Assembly (NCBI RefSeq): GCF_003012055.1
Contig: NZ_JYGE01000003.1
Coordinates: 186,001-250,000 of the forward strand
From: Peptostreptococcus russellii
GTDB taxonomy: Bacteria > Bacillota > Clostridia > Peptostreptococcales > Peptostreptococcaceae
DNA length: 64,000 bases
Direction: 5' to 3'
The notes under the pieces were generated by a model. The model saw only the letters and a program-made list of their open reading frames with translations. It was not told the DNA's origin and did no database searches. Shown one piece after another: positions 50,298 through 53,132 of this stretch. A program made the position numbers and the translations under genes. Position 1 is the stretch's first letter, and the number at the start of each line of letters is the position of its first letter.

Positions 50298-50317
50298 ATA
50301 ATTTAAACTATTTAAAT

Positions 50318-50350
50318 AAAAAAATCCTAGATGAATGTCTAGGATTTTTT
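50318..50350. terminator. Bidirectional terminator between the lyase and the Abi-like gene
   Basis: AAAAAATCCTAGA and TCTAGGATTTTTT pair around TGAATG (50332-50337). The right arm's T run reaches the stop codon of the minus-strand Abi-like gene. Confidence 0.92.
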
Positions 50351-51311
50351 ATCTTCTGAGATTTTTTATAAAGTCTTGAAAATCAGATATTGATTGAGCA
50401 TTTTTAAATCCATATCTTCTGGCTATGTGATCACTATCATTAATTAGTTTCTTTATAGGATTACATATGTTATCAAAAGAGCTATTAGGATTAATTTCAT
50501 GAGCTAGGTAAATAATTATACATATTACAAGGGCAACTCTATTTGTGGGAGCATTATTTTTAAATAAAAACATAAAATCTTTCCATTCTTCTCTAACAAT
50601 AGGCATTGTATTTATCTTTAAATCAATTCCATTTTTATTATGAGCACATATATTTCTCACTATTTTTATTAAATTCATCCAAGTAACAAGCTCATTTTTT
50701 GTACAACGATAATGGTTGGAAATCTCCTTTAAATTAGCTGTTGACATGCAGTCTAAAAGTTTAATAACTTCTCCAAATGAAATTATATCTACCATAACCC
50801 AAACAGTAGGGAACTCTCCTTCTATTTTGTAATGCTCAAATTCAGATTTTTTTACTCTTTTTACAGAGTTACGCAAGGTATATTTAAATTGTTTTTCAAT
50901 AAGTTTGATAGTTTTTTTATTATATACCTCTCTATTTGACCAAGAAGAAAAATTAAGATAACCCATAGCTCCGTAACGTGCACTCAGTGTATGTGCAATT
51001 TGAGTCTTGATAGAAACCTCAATATCCTCGATTGAATGTAGCAAAGAGAGCCTGAAGTCTTTATCTTGATTATATCTAAAAATGACCTCATTAAAGGAAA
51101 TATTGCTATATCTAATTTTTAGTTTTTTATCATATGTATCTGAAATGCTTGCAAATGGATATGTAAAATCTTTGAGTTTATAATATCCTATGTCTTGTAA
51201 TATATTTGCAGCTCTTTTTCTATCTTCAACATACATCCCCCTGTCAATTAACAAGTCAATCTGTTCTTCAAAAGTAAGATGCTTTTCATATTCTTGGTAG
51301 TTTTTAGTCAT
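50349..51311 (-). CDS. Abi_2/AbiF-like abortive-infection HEPN protein
   Basis: 320 residues. LTFEEQIDLLIDRGM near the N-terminus, IGYYKLKDFTYPF (about 41-53) and the F-rich middle are characteristic of the Abi_2 (AbiD/AbiF) family. RNICAH at 219-224 fits the RxxxxH motif of HEPN ribonucleases. The start ATG 51311 has GAGGATAA upstream. A short RNA gene with its own promoter and terminator lies 86-163 bases upstream on the same strand, where abiF RNA motifs occur in relatives. Family knowledge: phage defence by abortive infection, with the RNA reported to act as antitoxin in some AbiF systems related to Cas13. Activity here is inference. Confidence 0.87.
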   Translation of the reverse strand: MTKNYQEYEKHLTFEEQIDLLIDRGMYVEDRKRAANILQDIGYYKLKDFTYPFASISDTYDKKLKIRYSNISFNEVIFRYNQDKDFRLSLLHSIEDIEVSIKTQIAHTLSARYGAMGYLNFSSWSNREVYNKKTIKLIEKQFKYTLRNSVKRVKKSEFEHYKIEGEFPTVWVMVDIISFGEVIKLLDCMSTANLKEISNHYRCTKNELVTWMNLIKIVRNICAHNKNGIDLKINTMPIVREEWKDFMFLFKNNAPTNRVALVICIIIYLAHEINPNSSFDNICNPIKKLINDSDHIARRYGFKNAQSISDFQDFIKNLRR

Positions 51312-51396
51312 AAATTTATCCTCAAATTCTTTTTAAAATTAAGATTATAATAAAGAATTAAATATTTAAAGAAACTTTAAGTATAATCTTTTGCAT

Positions 51397-51474
51397 AAAA
51401 AAACCTCCACATCAGAGCGTATCTGTAATTTGGTGGAGGTATTGAAATCTTTTATAAAAACTATATCTTTTATT
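51397..51474 (-). ncRNA. Candidate abiF-type small RNA upstream of the Abi-like gene
   Basis: On the minus strand, a promoter at 51509-51481 should start an RNA near 51474. It ends in a hairpin, ACCTCCAC (51440-51433) with GTGGAGGT (51410-51403), followed by at least six T. Inside that hairpin is a second, CAGA-TACGC-TCTG (51424-51412 region), and the 5' part carries AAAGAT twice. The predicted length is about 78 bases. Its position directly upstream of an Abi_2 gene matches the published abiF RNA motif as I recall it. The end points are predictions. Confidence 0.65.
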
Positions 51475-51480
51475 AATTAA

Positions 51481-51509
51481 ATTATACTACAAAAAAGTAT
51501 TTTTTGCAA
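51481..51509 (-). promoter_or_regulatory. Promoter of the candidate abiF-type RNA
   Basis: On the minus strand TTGCAA (51509-51504) and TATAAT (51486-51481) are exactly 17 bases apart, one of the best promoters in the window. Confidence 0.75.
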
Positions 51510-52289
51510 TAGTATTTAAATATTGAAAATTAGGAATATTATAGTAGAAACTATAGCAACTAGTTGACATTGATTCCTTAGGGAAAGAGTAGGATATATC
51601 AAGATCAAGAGACATTATTAGTAAGTAGATAATTATCTAAAATGTATTTTTGATAGTTAAGATAATAGTAAATTGTATAATTGTAAAGATAAAAATAGCA
51701 TTGAAAGTAGTAAATAAAGACTATGACTCGACATATAGTAATACTAGAGGCACAGACATATATTAAGATGAAAATAGATGGGGCTAAATAATAGAAAAGG
51801 AAAATATAATAATATATTCCAAATACATATTTAAGCATATTGATTTTTATTAAAATCAGTGTAACTATTCCAATATCATTTGAATTTATATATTATTATA
51901 GTAATATAGGAGTATGCATAGTTGAAAATATTTAATAAGTAGTTAGTAAGAAAGCAATCTATAAAAGTAAAACTATTATAGTTTATAGTTAAGATTTCAA
52001 TAATTATAATAATTATAATTTAGAAAATAATTTGCGTTTTCTGAATAATATGATATAATATATTTATAATTCATTTTAAGAGTTCCTTTAAAAAATTGTT
52101 TTTTTGTTTAAAAGTAAAGGCTGTCCATTTTGGGCAGCTATTTTTCTGTTTAAAGATAGAAAATATATAATTGATTATACTTTTTTAAAATATAAATTAA
52201 AAATTGTATTTTGGGGTATTATTATATTATAGATAGAATTAACAGAATATTTATTCGAAAGTATAGTAAGTTGAAAATGGAGGATTATT
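51510..52289. other. Intergenic region between the Abi-like RNA promoter and pirin
   Basis: About 780 bases without a convincing gene; a 77-codon minus frame (51605-51838) has no ribosome binding site. The right part contains a promoter and a hairpin-terminated transcript candidate (52032-52146). The remainder is featureless AT-rich DNA. Confidence 0.5.
52032..52146 (+). ncRNA. Candidate small RNA or attenuated leader upstream of pirin
   Basis: TTGCGT (52032-52037) and TATAAT (52054-52059), 16 bases apart, should start an RNA near 52066. It would end at a hairpin GGCTGTCC (52119-52126) with GGGCAGCT (52132-52139), followed by ATTTTTC. CCTTTA (52085-52090) can pair with TAAAGG (52115-52120), which overlaps the terminator arm by two bases, so two exclusive folds are possible. 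It is either an independent RNA of about 80 bases or a leader for pirin (start at 52290). Confidence 0.45.
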
Positions 52290-53132
52290 ATGAAAAGAAA
52301 CATATTATCTGAAGTTAAAGGATTTGAAACTACAGATGGAGCAGGTGTTCGTTTGACAAGGGTTCTAAGTAGAAGGTCTTCTGAAATGTTTGACCCTATA
52401 CTTATGTTAGACTCTTTTGATAGCAAGGATCCCAAGGATTATATAGCAGGATTTCCTATGCATCCACATAGAGGTATAGAAACAATTACATACGTTTATA
52501 ATGGGAATATGATACATAAAGATAGCTTAGGTAATCAAGATGCCATTACAGATGGAGAGTTACAGTGGATGACTGCAGGGTCTGGTATTTTACACTCAGA
52601 AGAAATACCAGCATCTGAAAGAATGTTAGGTGTTCAGCTTTGGTTGAATTTACCAGCAAAAGACAAAATGGTGGCCCCAGAATACCATGCTATTAAAAAT
52701 AAAGATATTGAAGAAATAAAAATAGATGGTGGTAAGTTGAGATTATTGGCAGGCAAATATAAGGATAAAAAAGCTTATAAGTCAAAATATCTACCACTAA
52801 ACTACTATGATATACATTTGGCTCCAAATAAAAGCTTTAATATTGAAACTGAAAAAGATTCATCAGTCTTGTTATTTACTCTAGTTGGTGAAGCCTTAGT
52901 AAATGGCAAACATATAGGAGAAAAAACAGCAGTTAAACTTGCTGAAGGTGATGAAGTTTTAGTTTCAAGCACTGATAAGTATTTGCAACTACTTTTTATA
53001 GAGTCAAGATATCTAGGAGAAGAAATAGCTTGGGGAGGGCCTATAGTAATGAATACTAAAGAAGAGCTAGATAAGGCCTTTGAAGAATTAGAAAATGGTA
53101 GTTTTATAAAAGATGAAATGAAATATGAATAA
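52290..53132 (+). CDS. Pirin-family cupin protein
   Basis: 280 residues. FPMHPHRGIETITYV (about 55-69) supplies the metal-binding His residues of the N-terminal cupin, and LQWMTAGSGILHSEE (about 90-104) adds His and Glu; the C-terminal cupin has WGGPIVMN. Pirins bind Fe or Mn; some have quercetinase activity and others bind regulatory proteins, so the role is undefined. GGAGG precedes the ATG. It stands alone, before a nitroreductase, in a direction opposite to the Abi-like gene. Confidence 0.88.
   Translation: MKRNILSEVKGFETTDGAGVRLTRVLSRRSSEMFDPILMLDSFDSKDPKDYIAGFPMHPHRGIETITYVYNGNMIHKDSLGNQDAITDGELQWMTAGSGILHSEEIPASERMLGVQLWLNLPAKDKMVAPEYHAIKNKDIEEIKIDGGKLRLLAGKYKDKKAYKSKYLPLNYYDIHLAPNKSFNIETEKDSSVLLFTLVGEALVNGKHIGEKTAVKLAEGDEVLVSSTDKYLQLLFIESRYLGEEIAWGGPIVMNTKEELDKAFEELENGSFIKDEMKYE

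Follow-up and report, generated by a model that had tools for sequence, protein, structure and literature searches.

A second type of structured RNA beside AbiF-like HEPN genes and a probable RNA-controlled toxin module in Peptostreptococcus russellii

The 64,000-nucleotide stretch of Peptostreptococcus russellii DNA analysed here (contig NZ_JYGE01000003.1, positions 186,001 to 250,000 of the forward strand; termed the window) harbors on its minus strand an abiF-like gene (50349..51311), preceded by a small RNA gene of about 78 nt (51397..51474) that is predicted from a promoter and a terminator U-tract. This RNA belongs to a family other than the Rfam abiF motif RF03085, and the type of RNA is coupled to the clade of the Abi_2 protein encoded behind it. 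The locus is probably a two-part RNA-controlled toxin module, in which the short RNA would act as an intrinsic terminator and as a trans-acting antitoxin of AbiF, with RNA binding, toxicity and RNase action ascribed to it by analogy with relatives.

The RNA family is characterized by a pattern shared upstream of the closest homologues, which comprises CAA, a stem P1, a variable hairpin P2, the hairpin CAGA-loop-UCUG (P3), two bases, the P1 partner and a T-run, and which is carried by Streptococcus, Lactococcus and Lactobacillus phages as well as by Aerococcus, E. faecalis, Nicoliella and Fusobacterium records. When a covariance model built from 15 sequences (R1) was applied to 64 IMG/VR loci fetched by protein alignment alone, it matched just upstream of the gene in 62 of them at E 1.4e-5 or better. 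In the two misses (L085 and L091), the sequence starts 9 and 3 bases, respectively, ahead of the match to the protein, and the 62 matches represent 32 distinct sequences, many from related Streptococcus prophages. On another set of 62 sources, all 15 seeds were recovered and none of the 47 others matched at E 0.01 or better.

RNAalifold, supplied with sequence-only alignments of 15 RNAs and of 40 distinct RNAs, predicted P1, P2 and P3 unprompted. Over the 40 RNAs, paired cells amounted to 92.1% against 74.8% after shuffling, double-change cells to 118 against 31.3, and covariation to 0.574 against 0.237, values which none of 500 shuffles reached; of two coarser measures, 12 of 500 shuffles attained one and 1 of 500 the other. 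Sliding the partners by one column lowered the paired cells to 43-47%. The comparison of related AbiF-RNA pairs, suggested by an earlier reading of the window from its letters alone (the sequence-only reading), has in this way returned covarying stems. Minimum-energy folds contain P1 in 39/40, P3 in 33/40 and a P2 in 31/40, and a U-tract follows P1 in 40/40. Upstream of the RNA, a promoter scoring at least 10 of 12 is present in 34/40 (window included) versus 8.1% of shuffles, and the -10 box lies 8-16 bases from CAA in 36/40. The distance from the U-tract to the start codon is -2 to 22 bases in 26 of 31 loci tested (the 26 being those with a start found), so that the toxin mRNA there would most simply arise by read-through.

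Within the window, R1 finds the conserved core at 51395..51452 (minus strand, as for all features of the locus; 64.0 bits, E 6.3e-11), the window RNA being itself one of the 15 seeds. Alignment A4 places the two sides of P1 at 51433..51440 and 51403..51410, the latter continuing into the U-tract (51397..51403), and P3 (CAGA-UACGC-UCUG) at 51413..51425. The predicted 78-nt RNA has a folding energy of -14.5 kcal/mol and a z of -2.71, with 1/200 shuffles equally good, in agreement with the nested hairpin and T run described by the sequence-only reading. The promoter that it had named, TTGCAA-17-TATAAT, is present at 51481..51509 with a score of 10 of 12; it is conserved in relatives, and by itself it does not exceed chance expectation (the stretch has 3 sites resembling a promoter, versus 2.6 expected). 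The RNA unit does lie upstream on the same strand, although the gap to the start codon was computed as 85 rather than 86 bases. This gap contains a likely ribosome binding site read from the sequence (GAGGA, 51319..51323) and a putative second, toxin-only promoter with a short spacer (TTTAAA-15-TATAAT, 51344..51370; 10 of 12).

The gene encodes a 320-aa Abi_2/AbiD-F HEPN protein, which matches Abi_2 (PF07751) at E 5.5e-40 and 138.1 bits, against a curated cut-off of 25.6, and which is labelled AbiD by PADLOC (1e-48). Its one RNxxxH motif, R219-N-I-C-A-H224, is encoded at 50640..50657, exactly as first read. The anticipated HEPN fold with an Arg/His pair was also borne out: the protein has the fold of PbAbiF, whose structure was solved with its ncRNA (PDB 8VZ6), and R219 and H224 align with the catalytic R210 and H215 of that protein. 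The two share 20% identity, and this comparison, which draws on PMC12373285 and PMC12737573 for the published system, covers the proteins only. A homologue on P. russellii contig NZ_FODF01000007.1 is 72% identical, and mismatches between the two genes by codon position (0.21/0.12/0.47 over 319 codons) indicate purifying selection within the genus. Decay of the locus to a functionless remnant is very improbable. Just 2/9 Peptostreptococcus genomes carry it, and some phage relatives have truncated abi genes, as such decay would predict, but the reading frame is intact, all family-wide catalytic residues are retained, the codon pattern is a purifying one and the same neighbourhood recurs in P. 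russellii.

The sequence-only reading had pointed to the Rfam abiF motif for the RNA, an identity that had to be rejected. An Rfam scan of the whole window gave no match at gathering level anywhere, focused scans of the locus gave no RF03085 match up to E 10, let alone one of at least 37 bits, and a scan of the window genome gave none either, the control genomes in that scan also remaining without a match. The RF03085 model does find phiC2 (37.6 bits); it matches beside Abi_2 genes in phiC2, a same-genus genome (L008), L005 and L015, and, when 18 further loci were scanned, at gathering level in two of them (L103 and L110). No Rfam match was obtained at the RNA site of clade relatives, either in one scan of ten loci or in another of L027, L028, L032 and L033. 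An abiF-type covariance model built during this work (R3; seven sequences from six loci) matched 0/33 loci of the window clade at E up to 1, and 18/48 other loci at E 0.01 or better, 6 of the 18 being its seeds. RF03085 and AbiF as Cas13 ancestor have already been published (PMC12165695, PMC12737573). No description of the second RNA type was encountered in searches of an open-access library or in Rfam 15, and an earlier mention may exist in the Cell 2025 AbiF paper or the Weinberg paper.

RNA type is coupled to protein clade. Of the 74 proteins placed in a tree, the 35 that carry the new-RNA label constitute one clade (SH-aLRT 100). The 18 with the abiF-type label all sit within another group, which has 24 members, the deeper branching order being unsettled. 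The tree was built without 13 fragment or broken-frame loci (L003, L016, L024, L086, L095, L097, L099, L119, L122, L123, L124, L128 and L130), same-place duplicate loci, identical rows, new-RNA rows more than 90% identical, and AbiD1 (L034), which did not reach the search threshold. L085 received the new-RNA label without upstream sequence, and L007 and L104 were assigned to the abiF type on weak R3 matches (E 0.018 and 0.2), their core being recognisable on inspection. R219, N220, C222, A223 and H224 are common to both clades, whereas K47, R79, H92, W124 and N225, among others, differ between them. The subfamily is thus defined twice, by protein and by RNA.

The view of the locus as a complete RNA-controlled module thus stands in part: family, fold, motif, conserved RNA and RNA-clade coupling support it, and the RF03085 identity has fallen away. 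The promoter would produce a short RNA ending at its own hairpin (P1 with P3 inside), which would be intrinsic terminator and antitoxin at once. Most transcripts would stop there, and the free RNA would bind the AbiF dimer and keep the HEPN RNase site off, while a few read-through transcripts, or starts at the possible second promoter, would supply the toxin. As a guess at the trigger, infection might stop host transcription or change termination, whereupon the RNA pool would fall, AbiF would be freed, RNA would be cut and cell growth would stop.

The closest precedent is AbiF-Cd of C. difficile. According to PMC12373285, AbiF-Cd is toxic, a joint change of R202 and H207 abolishes the toxicity, and the upstream RNA neutralises it in cis and in trans. 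The same source describes an Abi_2 HEPN protein with an RNxCAH motif, the order promoter, structured RNA, terminator and gene, and a read-through transcript, all of which resemble the window locus. Its RNA, RCd22, differs in that it is longer (88-132 nt), contains the RF03085 motif twice and is terminated by a hairpin of its own, whereas the window RNA is a single hairpin of another family that is itself the terminator. In many abiF-type RNAs (several of L101-L117), the outer stem runs directly into the T-run, so that antitoxin and terminator are merged, unlike in RCd22.

Several points weigh against the antitoxin module. The window RNA lacks the RF03085 signature that was shown to matter in C. 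difficile. Moreover, the window and P. russellii RNAs have no P2, their leader measures 36-38 nt versus 8-16 in 36/40, and the Peptostreptococcus RNA-to-gene gap is 85-153 bases, so toxin supply in this genus may not depend on read-through. For AbiD1 of L. lactis pIL105, a 2009 study (PMC2661086) assigns the terminator no role in lux-fusion translation and places control by a phage protein at translation.

AbiD1 is also relevant to the main rival, that the RNA is solely a cis-acting leader, a terminator or attenuator which responds to some signal and adjusts transcription of the toxin gene but does not bind AbiF. AbiD1 is an Abi_2 protein, and a promoter and a short RNA ending in a terminator lie just upstream of its gene; a 50-base transcript stopping at that terminator was detected by Northern blot (PMC2661086). 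Such a leader would equally suit the short distance to the gene and the good terminator that P1 and its U-tract form in 40/40. The rival is nevertheless unlikely. P3 and its surrounding bases are conserved beyond the needs of a terminator (its pairs are 100% kept, with compensatory changes), and full RNA copies persist in records without an abi gene, some at other genome positions, which argues against a purely cis-acting terminator. A trans-acting antitoxin is preferred because gene-less copies cannot regulate in cis and because of the AbiF-Cd analogy. The AbiD1 RNA itself (L034:396-438) differs from the window family: it has no Rfam match and contains a weak abiF-type motif fused to the terminator (R3 E 0.048), by which the 50-base transcript would be an antitoxin candidate seen long ago.

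The gene-less copies emerged from viral sequences. A DNA pattern of the RNA core was located in 43 viral stretches, in which the RNA is followed by a complete gene of the clade in 32 cases, by a truncated one in 3 (L157, L171 and L183) and by none in 8; the abi gene stops after a few codons in L148 and L155 and is missing in L161, L165, L175, L177 and L182, and in L181 the RNA occupies another place, in a structured non-coding stretch. RNA and promoter are intact in L157, L171, L183, L148 and L155. With E 0.1 as the limit, BLAST with the 53-base L181 RNA returned 88 phage records, 44 of them covering at least 80%; about 54 of the 88 have S. thermophilus as host (GenBank/RefSeq duplicates counted), and some are abi-bearing prophages already among the loci. 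Nine records were opened for context. The RNA follows lysin genes in S. thermophilus-type phages (L187, L188, L189 and L193) and lies in an array upstream in prophages of S. dysgalactiae or S. agalactiae (L190, L191 and L195); Listeria B054 (L194) and Mammaliicoccus phi36 (L192) were also opened. Model R2 matched 14/14 solo-RNA records, with E values from 2.6e-12 to 8.9e-8 (in L190 the match leaves out the ends), and PF07751 was found in 0/14, the controls, which included no abi-bearing phage, giving one below-cut-off match. In Javan129 (L190), a new-type RNA (2001-2046) is followed by an abiF-type RNA (2052-2094; R3 E 1.3e-5). The 181-base stretch recurs unchanged in Javan132 and at 91% identity in Javan420, and it is the only place where both RNAs were seen together. 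In L190:1900-2260, L191:1900-2260 and L195:1430-1790, structured non-coding elements, some of them tRNA-like, are densely arrayed; no tRNA was detected by ARAGORN in L181 (same phage as L191), and L195 has an annotated tRNA-His.

RNA alone may act as an antidote in phages, for which the escape of phage phiTE from ToxIN by RNA mimicry (PMC3475682) offers a precedent. We tentatively propose, at somewhat less than even confidence, that AbiF toxins divide into two or more branches, that every branch is tied to an RNA antitoxin with a fold of its own, and that stand-alone phage RNAs, with both kinds in tandem in the tRNA-like array of at least one genotype (Javan129 and Javan132), could be decoys disarming the resident AbiF of either branch. 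Two observations tell against decoys: the opened solo copies have promoter matches of only 6-9 of 12 within 60 bases, although L187-L189 nonetheless show TGTTATAAT, and some copies may be what remains after gene loss, as several have sequence in common with prophages that carry the gene.

In type III toxin-antitoxin systems (ToxIN), too, the gene of an RNase is preceded by an RNA antitoxin and a terminator separates the two; the fold of the ToxIN toxin differs from that of AbiF. As judged from sequence and model, the window locus appears to share this layout of RNA gene, terminator and RNase-family gene. The ToxIN antitoxin consists of tandem repeats (PMC3475682), whereas the window RNA is a single copy, R1 giving a single match in the window genome and no tandem repeats. 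Cas13 combines two HEPN domains in one protein with a CRISPR array, compared with the one RNxxxH motif here; a pre-Cas13 guide system, in which the RNA would direct the protein to particular targets, is hardly to be expected.

On the polysaccharide side, the abiF-like gene is flanked by genes for a glycosyltransferase, a MurJ-type flippase and a CWB2-heparinase protein, and on the opposite side by those for a pirin, a nitroreductase, a 102-106-aa protein without Pfam match and a TldD/PmbA protein. The P. russellii homologue is flanked by a homologue of the small protein (75% identical) and by polysaccharide genes, one read from sequence as UDP-glucose dehydrogenase, in the same relative order. 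An inverted repeat with T-runs on both sides (50310-50345), likely a shared terminator, separates the convergent abiF and CWB2-heparinase genes, and some 800 very AT-rich bases without a convincing gene (51510-52290) lie between the RNA promoter and pirin.

With these results, the AbiF family, a proposed Cas13 ancestor, gains a second, structurally distinct RNA partner, so that the RNA features recognised by the protein, and the way in which one RNA partner is replaced by another, become open to study. The covariance model detects members where Rfam finds nothing. Meanwhile, with solo copies at hand, many of them in dairy Streptococcus thermophilus phages, harmless food and laboratory strains suffice for a direct test of RNA-only counter-defence.
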